Shown here one piece after another: positions 42,603 to 61,713 of a stretch of 62,396 nt of DNA. The position numbers and the translations under genes were made by a program. The DNA is from Planctomycetota bacterium (GTDB lineage Bacteria; Planctomycetota; MHYJ01; WSZJ01). The stretch covers positions 4,399 through 66,794 of the forward strand of contig WSZJ01000021.1 in NCBI GenBank assembly GCA_009773755.1, read 5' to 3'. The number at the start of each line of letters is the position of its first letter. The first letter of the stretch is position 1. The notes under the pieces were generated by a model. It made no database searches. It saw nothing but the letters and a program-made list of their open reading frames with translations, and was not told the DNA's origin.

Positions 42603-42604
42603 CT
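42577..42604. repeat. CCCCTACT-type repeat, single arm
   Basis: Reverse-complement GGGTAGT-family text (CTACCCCCTACTCACTACCC), running into the TAG stop of the rhodanese-GPx gene (complement of 42603-42605). Confidence 0.7.
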
Positions 42605-43499
42605 ACTTCTTCTCCAGCTCCCCCTCAATCACCTTCACCACCTCCTCATCACTCACCTTCACCTTCGGCTCCATCCTCTTCACGACCTTCCCCTCCCGGC
42701 TCACCAGGAACTTCGTAAAGTTCCACTTGATCTCCCCCGAGAATCCGGCGTTCGTCTTCTCCCCGGTCAGGAATTCGTACAGCGGACAGATCCCGTCCCC
42801 CTTCACCACCGCCTTCGACAGCATAGGGAACGTGACTGAGTATTCTTTCGTGCAGAACTCCCTGATCTCCGCGTCCGTCCCCGGCTCCTGCGCGCCAAAT
42901 TCGTTTGCCGGCACGCCGATCACCACGAGCCCCTTCTCCTTGTACTTCCCGTACAGCGCCTCCAGGTCCTTGTACTGCGGCGTCATTCCGCACTTCGACG
43001 CCACGTTGACCAGCACCACGACCTTTCCCTTGTAGTCCCCCAGCTTCACATCTTTTCCGTCGAGCCCCTTCATCGTGAACCCCAGCACTCCTTCCTCCTT
43101 CTTTCCGGTTTCCGCGGGCGCGCTCGACTTGCCCGCCTTCTCCCAGCCCTCAAGCCCTGCGCCGAACACCCGCACGTTCGTGTATCCGAAGCCGACCGCC
43201 CGGTCGGCTGCCTTGTGGCACGTGTGTCACTTCTCGTTCATGCAGTAGAAGACAAGCATCGCCCCCTTGTCTTCCGGCAGGTCCTTCGCCGTGTACTTCA
43301 TCGCGTTCAGCCACTGCGCCCCCGTCACGCGCCGCTTCTCCCAGATGAACTTCGGGTTGTTGTCGTAGATGTTTGCGTCGCCCGAGCGGATGGCCGTGTC
43401 GAGATCTTCGACGCTGATTTCGGTCCAGCCTTCGTCGCCGGCGCTGGTCTGAAGCGCCGTGAAGAGGAGCGCCGCGGAAGCGGCGAGCAGGATGCGCAT
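42603..43499 (-). CDS. Secreted rhodanese-glutathione peroxidase fusion with Sec in the rhodanese loop
   Basis: 298 residues if the UGA at 43229-43227 is Sec91. A signal peptide (1-20) leads to a rhodanese domain (about 25-115) with VTGAQWLNAMKY, then VFYCMNEK-U-HTCHKAADR. The UGA lies in the active-site loop, with Cys94 three residues on. The domain resumes normally with VGFGYTNVRVFGAGLEGW. The second domain (about 145-298) is a glutathione peroxidase with Cys170 (NVASKCGMTPQYKD), VPANEFGAQEPGTD and IKWNFTKFLVSREG. The two redox domains may act together on sulfane or selenane sulfur and peroxides. ATG is preceded by AAAGGAGCT. It lies 78 bases behind the Sec metalloprotease gene. Confidence 0.88.
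43190..43209 (-). promoter_or_regulatory. Candidate bacterial SECIS hairpin, rhodanese-GPx
   Basis: Perfect eight-base-pair stem (43209-43202 with 43197-43190 on the minus strand) closed by a GGGC loop, beginning 17 nt after the UGA. The G-led loop fits the bacterial SECIS preference for a G in the first loop positions. Confidence 0.7.
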
Positions 43500-43577: not shown

Positions 43578-44537
43578 TTACTTCCCGGTGTTATTGACTG
43601 TGACTTTCATCTCGGGCGGTTGCCGCTGCACCGGGTCCCCCGCATCCAGCGCCGCGAACGCCTTTTTCAGTTGAGGCCACTTCCAGATCAGCCGGTCACG
43701 GCACCCCGTGGGATTGTTCCCGTTGCCGTTGTGGTTTTTCGCGTGGCAGAAGCCCTTGTCCCGGAGGGCCATGATGCACTCGGGTCAGGTAGCGCCCGTA
43801 TTCGCGCCGAAGCCCGCGCCTTTGTACTCGTCCTCCAGACCGAGCGCAGCGTGCCCGAGTTCGTGGAAGATGACGCGGGCGAACCAGTTCTGGACGCCCA
43901 TCGGGATGTTGAACCAACCGTTGGGCGTGTCCTTGAACTCGATGTCGTAGACCAAGTGCCCCTCGGCCTTCTGGTCCGTGAAGATCACTTCGACGATGAA
44001 CATGGCTCCGTGCGTCGCCGTCGCCATCTTCGCGGAAGCGAGTTTCATTTCTTCGGCCAGCTTTTCGATCTCCTCGCGAGACAGGTCCTGCTTGCAGCCG
44101 ATGCTGATCGTGAGCGGCACGAGCGACGCCTGGAACAACTCCTCGAGCGCTTTCCCGGCCGCCTCGAGGTCTTTTTTTGCATCCTTGTGCTCCGGCTTGA
44201 GTTCGAGAGTTTTTTCCAGAAGCGGCTTCGCCTGCGGCCAGAGCTTCCGGTCGCGGCACCACCTTGCGAGCGCGTACGTCGCGTCGGCGTCGCCGTCCTT
44301 GAGTTTCGCCAGCTTCTCGTTGTAGAGCTCGAAGGCGCTCTTTTCCTTCGTCCATTTTGCGATGTCCGCGAATTTCACCGTGAGGCTTCCGTCGAAATTT
44401 TCCAGCGTCACCGAGTCGGCAGTTTTCTCGACGATACGGCCCTCGATGACTCGCTTGTCCTTGAGCAGGAGCATGTCGGCTCCGGCAACGCAGGCGGAGA
44501 TGGCGAGAAGTGCGGTGGTGGCGGCGAAGCGCTTCAT
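43578..44537 (-). CDS. Secreted M64-like metalloprotease with Sec next to the Met-turn
   Basis: 319 residues with UGA at 43787-43785 read as Sec251. A signal peptide (1-20) is followed by a small beta domain (ADMLLLKDKRVIEGRIVEK) shared with the HExxH proteins at 5229 and 6820. A helical part resembles TPR (RDRKLWPQAKPLLEKTLELK). The protease domain has HELGHAALGLEDEY at 225-238, spaced exactly as in peptidase family M64 (His225, His229, Asp236 ligands). Then come GAT-U-PEC-IMALRDK, where CIM is the Met-turn, and a Cys-containing tail. Sec251 and Cys254 are placed for a selenylsulfide. A plain stop would cut off the Met-turn, so readthrough is needed for a complete domain. Confidence 0.85.
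43751..43770 (-). promoter_or_regulatory. Candidate bacterial SECIS hairpin, metalloprotease
   Basis: Six-base-pair stem GGCCCU/AGGGCU (43770-43765 with 43756-43751, outer G-U) and an eight-base loop CCGGGACA, beginning 14 nt after the UGA. Weaker than the other candidates because of the larger loop. Confidence 0.5.
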
Positions 44538-44714: not shown

Positions 44715-46136
44715 TTAGACCGCGACCCGGTCGGAATCCGGCACGGGAGTGCCCTCCGAAGCGGTTGGCGGCGCTTCTGCATCCGCGGTCCGGAGCGCGC
44801 GCACGAAGGCGCCCATCCAGCGCGCGACCATCCAGAGGGCGACGGAGGCGAAGGTGAAGCCGACGGCGACCATGAGGGCGGGGAAGGCGGCGACGAAGCG
44901 GGAGAGGTCGGGGGCGGAGGGGCCGAGCTGGCGTGCGAGGCCGGCGGAAGCGCCGCGGATGGCGAACAGGGTGAGGAAAACGATGAGCAGGTGGTCGAGG
45001 GCGGTGACGGCGCGGCGCATCCAGGGGTCGCGGACGGCGGCGTGCGCCGGGCCGGCGAGCTGGCGGGCGGCCCAGGACATCGCGCACCAGAGGATCATGG
45101 AGTCGATGCCGATCATGGTGCCCATGGCGTGGGCGGTGACGATGTGCGTGCCGTGGATGAGCGAGTTCACGGGCGGGACGGACATCGCGATCGCCGAGGC
45201 GAGCATGAGGCAGGTCCAGAGCGTGACGGACGAGGCGAAGCGCGCCGGAACGGCGAGGTCGGGCGCGGGCGGCGCCTTCCGGCGCAGGTTCCAGAGGTCG
45301 ATGGTGACTTTCGCGAGGAGGATGACTTCGATCATGGAGACGAGGAAGCTGACCCAGTGGACCCACGCCGTCTGCGGGAGGTGGAACGTGTGGTGTCCGT
45401 AGTTGGTGAACGTGTTGATGATGCCGACCGCAAAGAGCAGGAACCCGGTCGTCGAGTGCGCGTAGCTGTCGTTGCCGCGCATCTTCCCGGCGATCCACAT
45501 CATCGACCCGTACGCGAGCAGGTTGAAGCTGCCGACCATCACGCCGTTCGCCTTCCACTGGATCGCGATGTCGCGAAGCGGCCGGCGGCTGATCCACTCG
45601 AGCGTGTAGGCGTTGGCTTCGAGGAACGTGATCGCGAAGAGCGGGATCGCCGCGGTCCACATCCAGACGTAGACGGGTTTGCCGCGAAGCGAGAAGCCGG
45701 CGCGGGCGAAGAAATTCCACGCGAACAGAGCCCAGCCCGTGAGGATCATCGCGCCGAACGCGGGGTGGTAGCCGGCATATTCGCGGCCGGTGAAGCGGCC
45801 CGCGAGGAGCGAAACAATGATCCCGGCGCCCGCCGTGAGCCAGAGCGCGATCATGGCGCGGAAGCGCATCCGTTCCGCGCCGCAGAATGGTCCTCCGAGC
45901 GAGATGAGCCAGGCGTGGACGACGGTCACGCCGCCGAGGAACACCCATGCGAACGCGAACGACTCATGGATCGGGCGCAGGTGTTGAAGGGTCAACCCGG
46001 AAGAGCGCAGCGACGGCTCCCACGACGTGTAGACAATCGACGCGGCCATCCCGCCGAGGAGCGTCAGCGCGCACGCCCCCAGCGCCATCAGCGCGAGGAT
46101 CGCGACCGAACGCCCGCCCTGGCCGATGGCGTTCAC
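44715..46136 (-). CDS. norB: NorB-like haem-copper oxidoreductase subunit I, divergent
   Basis: 473 residues from GTG overlapping the norC stop, with about 12 membrane spans. Family marks: low-spin haem His in LRPIHESFAFAW, GREYAGYHPAFG, the His pair in NYGHHTFHLPQ, and HGTHIVTAHAMGTMIGID near the haem ligands of NorB. The helix that should carry the first Fe-B/Cu-B His and Glu reads NGVMVGSFNLLAYGSMMW, without either, and the usual second His after AH appears as Met. It is paired with a c-type cytochrome subunit, so NO reduction or a related electron-accepting reaction is likely. The altered ligands make the exact chemistry uncertain. Confidence 0.75.
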   Translation of the reverse strand: MNAIGQGGRSVAILALMALGACALTLLGGMAASIVYTSWEPSLRSSGLTLQHLRPIHESFAFAWVFLGGVTVVHAWLISLGGPFCGAERMRFRAMIALWLTAGAGIIVSLLAGRFTGREYAGYHPAFGAMILTGWALFAWNFFARAGFSLRGKPVYVWMWTAAIPLFAITFLEANAYTLEWISRRPLRDIAIQWKANGVMVGSFNLLAYGSMMWIAGKMRGNDSYAHSTTGFLLFAVGIINTFTNYGHHTFHLPQTAWVHWVSFLVSMIEVILLAKVTIDLWNLRRKAPPAPDLAVPARFASSVTLWTCLMLASAIAMSVPPVNSLIHGTHIVTAHAMGTMIGIDSMILWCAMSWAARQLAGPAHAAVRDPWMRRAVTALDHLLIVFLTLFAIRGASAGLARQLGPSAPDLSRFVAAFPALMVAVGFTFASVALWMVARWMGAFVRALRTADAEAPPTASEGTPVPDSDRVAV

Positions 46137-46981
46137 TTGTACTCCCACCACGGCAGATCCTTCCACGTGAAGCCTTCGCGCTGGAGCATGGCGTCGTTCT
46201 TTTCGACCAGTTCGTCGCGATGCCGCGCGACCCACTCAAGGAACTCGGCGATGTCCTGCACCTGATCCGGCGTGAACGCGTGCGAGGGCATGACCCGGCG
46301 CCCTTCGGCGAGAATCGGGCCGAGATACGTCGGCGAGCGATCCTGCGCCGCGAGCGTGAGATCCGGCGCGCGATGGAAACCCTCCATGAAGGGGATGTGG
46401 CACGCGCCACAAGCCGCGGTCGTCACGACCTCGCATCCGCGCTTCGCGCTCTCGGACGGTGCCACGGAAGCCCCTTCGGCCATCAGCGCCTTCCAGTGTT
46501 TCGACGGCTGCACCGGCTTCTTTGCGGCATTGGACCGCGGCTGGGACCGCCCCGTGCGGTTCATCGCGCGCAGGAACGCGAGGACAGCGCGCTGGTCGTC
46601 GTCGGGGAGGTGAAGCGCGGGCATTTTTCCCCAGCCGTTCGTGAGGAGCGAGGCGAAATCGGAGTCGTCGCGCTTCGCATCGACGGCATTCGTGAGATCG
46701 GGCCCGAGGAAGCCGCCGAAGCCGTGGATCTGGTGGCAGACCTGGCAGTTGTTGCGGCGCCAGACGTCGAGGCCGTCGCGTTCGAGGTCGGTGAGTTGCG
46801 GCCCGGGCGCGCGCGGGTGATCGGTGTAGGCGACAACGGAGAGGCCGGCGTAGGCGGCAACCATGGCGGCGAAGAGAATTTCGCGCCAGCGGGACGTCAG
46901 GTTGCGCGCGGATTCGGGCAAGGTGGCGGGCTCCGTGGATCGGGACGCGTGCATTATCGCGGAAGGCAAAGAGCGCCACAT
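46133..46981 (-). CDS. norC: Membrane-anchored dihaem cytochrome c, NorC-like
   Basis: 282 residues. An N-terminal span (about 38-55, REILFAAMVAAYAGLSVVAY) is followed by two CxxCH haem sites: CQVCHQIHGFGGFLGPDLTN, strongly NorC-like, and CGACHIPFMEGFHRAPDLT. NorC normally has one haem; the second domain with ILAEGRRVMPSHAFTPDQVQ is extra. It should pass electrons to the NorB-like subunit whose GTG overlaps this stop. Start uncertain: ATG at 46981 or 46954, neither with a clear ribosome site. Confidence 0.82.
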   Translation of the reverse strand: MWRSLPSAIMHASRSTEPATLPESARNLTSRWREILFAAMVAAYAGLSVVAYTDHPRAPGPQLTDLERDGLDVWRRNNCQVCHQIHGFGGFLGPDLTNAVDAKRDDSDFASLLTNGWGKMPALHLPDDDQRAVLAFLRAMNRTGRSQPRSNAAKKPVQPSKHWKALMAEGASVAPSESAKRGCEVVTTAACGACHIPFMEGFHRAPDLTLAAQDRSPTYLGPILAEGRRVMPSHAFTPDQVQDIAEFLEWVARHRDELVEKNDAMLQREGFTWKDLPWWEYK

Positions 46982-47002
46982 CAAAATAATGAAGTCACAT
47001 AC

Positions 47003-61035: not shown

Positions 61036-61713
61036 ATGAGGGGAATCGCTTGCACGGTCCTGTCGTTCGCACTTTTTGCGGCGTGTTACGCCGGGGATCC
61101 TGCGCCTGCGGCGGACCCGCTCACCGTACGGATGGAGACCGAGCGGATCAGCTTCGATTTCAAGGACGCCGGGTTGAACGGCGTTGTCGAGTGGCTCACG
61201 ACGGAGACGGGGCTGAAAATCAGAGTCTCGGAGGCGGCACGGCAGCGCGCGCTGGACAAGAAACTGAAAATCACGGCGCGGCTGAAGGACGTGAAGCTGG
61301 CCGCCGCGCTCCGGCTGCTGTTCGAGAATCATGGCATGGTGATGCTCGTCGAAGACGGCTGGGTGCGGCTGCGGTTGCGCGACGAGGCCGCCGGCACGAA
61401 GGTCACGCGGCGCATCGACGTGCGCGAGTTGCTGGCGACCGTCCCGGATTTCGAGGGGCCGGATGTCGGGCTGCCGGAAGATAGCGGATGCCCCTCGTTC
61501 GGCTGATTCTGGGGCTACGAAGAGGGCCGGCGGCTCCTCGACGAACCTGAAACGCTTCTTTCGCTCGTCCAGCAGGCGGCCGGAGGAGACGCGGTCTGGC
61601 GGCAGGAGGGCGCCTGGATCGAGCTGAAGAACGGCTTCCTGACCGTCTGCCACAGCGAGGAAGTGGTGGAACGCGTGGAAGAAGCGGTGCGCGCGTTGAC
61701 GGCCATGAAATAG
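61036..61713 (+). CDS. Secreted STN-like protein with in-frame UGA (probable Sec)
   Basis: 225 residues if the TGA at 61504-61506 is Sec157. A signal peptide (1-20, with Cys near 17) is followed by an STN/secretin N0-like domain (DLTVRMETERISFDFKDAG-like text, GVVEWLTTETGLKIRV). Then come VTRRIDVRELLATVPDF and CPSFG-U-FWGYEEGRR. The frame continues for 68 codons with LLSLVQQAAGGDAVWRQEGA and LKNGFLTVCHSEEVVERVEE, a second alpha/beta domain common in Planctomycetota proteins of this type. A stop at the UGA would cut between the two domains. Cys152 lies five residues before Sec157. GAGGAGAC precedes the ATG. Confidence 0.8.
61522..61539 (+). promoter_or_regulatory. Candidate bacterial SECIS hairpin, STN-like protein
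   Basis: Stem GAGGGCC with GG-(C)-UCCUC (61522-61528 with 61532-61539, one bulged C and one G-U pair) and a three-base GGC loop, beginning 15 nt after the UGA. Confidence 0.5.

Follow-up and report, generated by a model that had tools for sequence, protein, structure and literature searches.

A planctomycete gene for a predicted metzincin-like metalloprotease with an in-frame UGA beside the Met-turn, very probably a selenocysteine codon

The gene and its in-frame TGA codon

This work concerns a gene for a predicted exported metalloprotease, which lies on a 62,396-nucleotide stretch of DNA from a Planctomycetota bacterium (assembly GCA_009773755.1, contig WSZJ01000021.1, positions 4,399 to 66,794); this whole stretch is called the window. 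The minus-strand open reading frame, 44537-43578, begins with ATG and runs through 250 codons, a TGA, 68 further codons and a TAA. The in-frame UGA is very likely decoded as selenocysteine (Sec, U). It opens the sequence U251-P-E-C254-I-M256, which stands twelve residues past the zinc motif HELGHAALGLEDEY. An earlier interpretation, made without database searches and called here the sequence-only reading, had described just this order of an M64-like site, 12 residues and U-PEC-IM, and the 319-residue translation agrees with it. As that reading also held, the protein would lose its Met-turn without readthrough, since a stop at the TGA leaves 250 residues and the Met-turn is at 256. The features of the gene are listed below, C1 to C4 being positions 251, 254, 264 and 279.

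43578..44537, minus strand: whole gene, predicted exported metalloprotease, 319 residues with U251, TAA stop at 43578-43580
44478..44537, minus strand: N-terminal signal sequence, residues 1-20, judged by eye (modelled helix 5-15, low confidence)
44349..44477, minus strand: small beta-barrel (SH3/Sm-like) domain, residues 21-63, from the model and Foldseek
44124..44336, minus strand: TPR-like helices, residues 68-138
43581..44123, minus strand: metzincin-like catalytic domain, residues 139-319
43824..43865, minus strand: zinc motif HELGHAALGLEDEY, residues 225-238
43785..43787, minus strand: TGA codon 251 (Sec)
43776..43778, minus strand: codon of Cys254 (C2), equated with C606 of IgAse through PMC12237041 and a weak alignment
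43770..43772, minus strand: Met256, the methionine of the Met-turn
43746..43748, minus strand: Cys264 (C3 of the cluster)
43731..43733, minus strand: His269, conserved together with the forms that contain C1
43701..43703, minus strand: Cys279 (C4), at the start of the C-terminal helix
43740..43784, minus strand: codons 252-266, synonymous freeze in the comparison of three Sec genes, a constraint like that of a selenocysteine insertion sequence (SECIS)
43751..43770, minus strand: conserved hairpin of 6 bp, loop CCGGGACA, -8.4 kcal/mol, loop beginning 20 nt past the TGA

The search for close relatives covered five genomes, that of the window (G000) and four congeners (81-89% complete), and showed that three distinct genes have their TGA at codon 251: two paralogues in the window's genome and one gene of a congener. 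The own-genome paralogue (G000:C259, 72% identity) and the congener gene (in G002, 70% identity) each contain a single in-frame TGA; the DNA of the latter is identical to JACPRD010000209.1, from a Planctomycetota groundwater metagenome-assembled genome. In the remaining three congeners the same search gave matches to the N-terminal part only. Between pairs of the Sec genes 55 to 61 of the 67 residues past the TGA are identical, and the ratio of non-synonymous to synonymous substitution rates (dN/dS) is 0.10-0.14 over codons 252-318, 0.09-0.14 over codons 268-318 and 0.16-0.20 over codons 21-250; values for the part ahead of the TGA range from 0.12 to 0.26. Purifying selection acts on both sides of the codon 251 TGA. 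A simple stop, a pseudogene and a frameshift, the last of which the sequence-only reading had named as an alternative, are rejected on the codon shared by three genes and the purifying selection past it. Genome-wide recoding of TGA is unlikely because in two of the three Sec genes, the C259 paralogue and L035, the terminal stop at the aligned last residue is itself TGA, and TGA also serves as a stop in the genus. In a codon-usage scan of 185 TGA codons that are flanked by long open frames, upstream as well as downstream, the protease TGA came third. The database proteins P0003, P0004 and P0005 end at residue 250; P0004 represents a further distinct gene, known here from the protein alone.

The window's genome contains the machinery for Sec: tRNA-Sec (71.9 bits, anticodon UCA), SelA (450 bits), SelB (344 bits, in two pieces of one frame) and SelD (370 bits), which has one TGA of its own, within a UxxK motif. 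Within the class, 15 of 23 genomes had a tRNA-Sec match above the cut-off, and one congener genome contained two high-scoring matches (G003:C207 with 77.2 bits, G003:C85 with 73.4 bits). Inside the window there was no Rfam match at gathering score, and ARAGORN found no tRNA. The TGA at codon 251 of three genes, the purifying selection past it and the Sec machinery support the earlier proposal of a selenoprotein.

At the RNA level, all 13 comparable synonymous codons of the block 252-266 are identical across the three Sec genes; in the rest of the genes 90 of 178 are (Fisher p 2e-4, to be taken as indicative, for the block was picked after inspection of the alignment). Such a freeze is compatible with an RNA element embedded in the coding sequence. 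The bacterial SECIS (bSECIS) rule places the loop 16-37 nt from the UGA and asks for a G as its first or second base, with a minimum free energy of -7.5 or lower (PMC13188914, section 5). The protease hairpin has its loop at 20 nt and folds with -8.4 kcal/mol, the G being the third base of the loop; in another fold (-4.9) it is the second. The hairpins of selD and of the neighbouring rhodanese gene satisfy the G rule. Such hairpins form a common background in this DNA (186 of 300 random 60-mers of the window hold one, 120 of 300 under the G rule), therefore the protease hairpin is given no weight as evidence.

Fold, relatives and the cysteines of the Met-turn

The protein is a predicted metzincin-like metalloprotease. 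AlphaFold2 models, structure prediction being a check proposed earlier, support a metzincin-like catalytic domain and with it the metzincin fold; the motif HExxH..G..H/D is present as HELGHAALGLED, which is one residue longer, like that of IgAse, and a Met-turn comes after it. The modelled loop 241-247 is poorly ordered, with a predicted local distance difference test score (pLDDT) below 50. A fold search with the full model was dominated by TPR and Sm-like chains, so the catalytic domain was folded alone. With this domain model the archaemetzincin 2x7m appeared at Foldseek rank 17 (E 0.12), the adamalysin-type structures had 8-17% sequence identity among the matches listed, and no M64 or archaemetzincin chain was among the 50 VIA rows listed. 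Searches of Pfam, NCBIfam and the PDB with the single protein returned no family above cut-off and no significant chain; PF09471 (Peptidase M64) scored 14.2 bits against a cut-off of 26, and across the family 2 of 28 rows reached E 0.01 with it. The archaemetzincin M54 signature HEXXHXXGXXHCX4CXMX17CXXC is not matched by the protein sequence. The barrel domain gave Hfq/Sm-like Foldseek matches with E 0.012 and weaker. Most of the 78 matches in G000-G004, on many contigs, span only the first ~130 residues (the barrel-TPR module), and the open frames that contain them have lengths of 176 to 1138 residues; the module marks a large lineage-specific protein set.

Relatives were found in 16 of the 392 genomes of a phylum sample and in 14 of 23 genomes of the class, and protein searches at differing cut-offs gave 5, 9 and 40 proteins, which partly overlap. 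In alignment A4 (28 rows, selected from the sequences at hand) column 251 is Cys in 22 of the 24 covering non-Sec rows, the other two having R or W there and a Cys one residue later. Met256 is kept in 26 of 26 covering rows; a wider relative, L079, has Gln in its place. A larger set comprised 71 distinct relatives that fit a pattern demanding the Met-turn Cys (C2), with relatives lacking C2 uncounted: three have U, 47 CxxC, 10 CxC, and 11 have no Cys at that place. The Cys anticipated at residue 251 in homologues was thus found in most rows of the alignment; homologues with neither Cys nor Sec there, named beforehand as the case that would speak against the proposal, exist as well (the 11 of 71, mainly distant relatives) and weigh against a strict form of it. 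In a maximum-likelihood tree the three U rows form one group (100/99; all 200 bootstrap trees), and the group nearest to them consists of seven CxxC rows, joined at a weaker fork (87/56). A single Sec group with CxxC neighbours makes it most likely that Cys was replaced by Sec once, the direction of the change being inferred. A Cys paralogue in the window's own genome (L082, G000:C124) and congener relatives (L081, L065-L067) have a denser cluster, HCDNC-x2-CIM, which is near the archaemetzincin pattern, and their N-terminal module is the same as that of the Sec protein.

Taken together, we read the gene as encoding a predicted exported metzincin-like metalloprotease in which the UGA very likely specifies a Sec that replaces the first of four Met-turn cysteines and is likely a ligand of a structural zinc; we give this joint reading a probability of about 0.5. 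By analogy, Sec251, Cys254, Cys264 and Cys279 are predicted to bind zinc below the active site. The zinc sites of IgAse and the archaemetzincins and the ligand sets of the relatives are most simply brought together by a metal site, likely with Sec251 as the fourth ligand. The C254-C264 spacing of 10 equals that between C606 and C616 of IgAse (PMC12237041) and is that of the three Sec rows and of 4 of the 47 CxxC rows, a spacing of 12 being commoner (35 of 47). In 35 of the 71 rows, one of them a paralogue from the window's own genome, stands HC-x(4-6)-C-x-M, a pattern that resembles the archaemetzincin signature. All 11 rows without C1 have C2, as the pattern demands, and two later cysteines; five of them show Asp-Glu with C2...C3-x2-C4, a ligand set of the IgAse type, at a C2-C3 spacing of 12-13, and the other six do not. 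In 60 of the 71 rows C1 is occupied by Cys or Sec, and a His stands five residues past C3 in 59 of these 60 vs 3 of the 11 others, an association that suggests a built-in role of C1.

Several observations weigh against this reading. E237 is kept in all three Sec rows, so that E237, C254, C264 and C279 are all present, and the fourth ligand could be E237 instead of Sec251. C4 lies 15 residues past C3 here and 3 in IgAse. Finally, the best fold of the protease hairpin breaks the bSECIS rule in the position of the G.

The main rival, put forward already in the sequence-only reading, is a selenylsulfide between Sec251 and Cys254 (UxxC) that serves as a lock or a switch of the Met-turn, a second metal being absent. 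UxxC is a common redox motif of Sec (PMC13188914), four similarly placed cysteines form two disulfides in BaP1, H2-proteinase, acutolysin A and ADAM33 (PMC3427221), the protein is predicted to be exported, and the adjoining downstream gene probably encodes a redox selenoprotein. Against the selenylsulfide, Cys254 (C2) is present in 11 of 11 rows lacking C1 (C2 was part of the search pattern, and rows lacking both were not sought), therefore C1 is not an obligate partner of C2; and the M64 IgAse, with the same variant of the zinc motif, has zinc at this place and no disulfides (PMC12237041). As four cysteines form disulfides in several adamalysins but hold zinc in archaemetzincins, and IgAse binds zinc with three Cys and a Glu, zinc binding is no less likely than the selenylsulfide. 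The selenoprotein, the M64-like site and the Cys relatives of the sequence-only reading are supported; its selenylsulfide is possible and seems less likely than a structural zinc.

The zinc site and the selenylsulfide could also be two states of one switch. Termination at the UGA would give a 250-residue piece without the Met-turn, which would make the active enzyme dependent on selenium, and oxidation, a hypothetical step, could expel the zinc, form the selenylsulfide Sec251-Cys254 and alter activity. The protein would then hold a natural zinc-selenolate, Zn(Cys3Sec), under the catalytic zinc; oxidation would free this zinc and close the selenylsulfide, in a protease that is redox-switched and made only with selenium. 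We offer this fuller scheme tentatively and consider it rather doubtful.

A further alternative, favoured by the retention of E237 in all three Sec rows, is that E237, C254, C264 and C279 hold the zinc in the manner of IgAse. Sec251 would then be an additional, unbound selenol, whose reaction with peroxide or thiols would control the release of zinc or the active site. The rows lacking C1 do indicate that the remaining cluster can dispense with it; set against this are the presence of C1 in 60 of 71 rows and its association with the His past C3, and we find such an unbound selenol unlikely. A cysteine-switch role for Sec251, in which it would bind the catalytic zinc and keep the enzyme latent, is very unlikely: the residue does follow a poorly ordered loop, 12 residues past the zinc motif, but it groups in sequence with C2, C3 and C4 at the Met-turn, outside any pro-segment. 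That the TGA is a true stop, with a working protein of 250 residues and the later 68 codons a relic or an assembly error, accords with the 250-residue database forms and is highly improbable in view of the selection past the TGA, the codon shared by three genes with no frameshift, the Cys relatives that read on and the Sec machinery of the genome.

Neighbouring genes

The protease gene is followed by a second gene with an in-frame TGA:

42603..43499, minus strand: rhodanese-GPx fusion, the gene that follows 78 bases past the protease stop, own in-frame TGA at 43227-43229

This TGA (CMNEKU-HTC) is kept in four genomes (G000, G002, G003 and G004) and is replaced by Cys in a G004 paralogue; it ranks first among the 185 in the codon-usage scan, and its hairpin, with -14.5 kcal/mol, fits the bSECIS rule. 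The fusion is likely a second selenoprotein. Its predicted Sec is carried by the rhodanese half, and its GPx domain has Cys at the usual GPx Sec place. Protease and fusion stand in tandem and may belong to a single operon; in G002 each of them is on a contig of its own.

A gene for a small STN-like protein (61036-61713, plus strand) has an in-frame TGA at 61504-61506 (CPSFGUFWG) with coding-like usage on both sides and rank 2 of 185; relatives align across this codon, with no Cys at the aligned place. Just upstream of the protease, 44715-46235 (minus strand) resembles, by eye, a membrane subunit of the heme-copper oxidase/NorB kind, and 46133-46984 (minus strand) a c-type cytochrome.

Significance and comparison with known systems

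Redox functions are expected for most of the prokaryotic selenoproteins that are still uncharacterised (PMC13188914). A Sec beside the Met-turn of a protease, if true, would extend selenium chemistry to a hydrolase and would make the enzyme dependent on selenium supply and perhaps responsive to oxidation. With Sec naturally in one of the four positions, zinc and disulfide could also be told apart cleanly, selenium being traceable by X-ray absorption and mass spectrometry. The case exposes an annotation error as well, the database copies found here ending before the Met-turn.

A catalogue published in 2026 (PMC13188914) covers 119 families of prokaryotic selenoproteins. Its main text contains no 'protease', 'peptidase' or 'Planctomyc', which is consistent with a natural Sec in a metzincin-like protease being new relative to that catalogue and with the earlier statement that no metalloprotease with Sec at this place was known. 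Judged on titles and the beginnings of abstracts, mainly of the open literature, the papers listed showed no natural Sec metzincin; mainly in the open literature, we found nothing on selenocysteine as a structural zinc ligand.

It is instructive to compare the protein with several known systems. Prokaryotic UxxC selenoproteins (PMC13188914, Table 1) resemble it in having Sec three residues ahead of a Cys, and Cys relatives. They differ in that the Sec of the present protein stands beside a hydrolase active site, none of the 119 families being named as a protease or peptidase. Hsp33 is a cytosolic chaperone whose Cys4 zinc site is oxidised to disulfides, and it is not known to contain Sec. The Hsp33-type zinc redox centre, named in PMC3427221, is alike in its Cys4 zinc; the oxidation switch is hypothetical for the present protein. 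In a small-molecule reagent, a zinc-bound selenolate is known to react with peroxide (PMC10598800).

In several adamalysins (adamalysins/ADAMTS, M12B) the corresponding positions differ in forming two disulfides (PMC3427221). The archaemetzincins (M54) likewise have four Cys around the Met-turn, which bind zinc; their authors floated a redox switch between the zinc and disulfide forms and later dropped it for a structural role, a Cys-to-Ala mutant being inactive and unstable (PMC3427221). The third ligand of the Sec protein is Asp, unlike in archaemetzincins, for which no Sec is reported. From the M64 IgAse (PF09471), which holds a structural zinc beneath the Met-turn through E551, the Met-turn residue C606, C616 and C619 and shows no disulfides (PMC12237041), the Sec protein differs in its N-terminal domains, in the Sec or Cys ahead of the Met-turn, which is outside the IgAse ligand list, and in the C3-C4 gap (14 residues vs 2); the two share HExxHxxxGxxDEY with the extra helix residue and the Asp ligand, the Met-turn Cys-Ile-Met, and a Cys 10 residues on.
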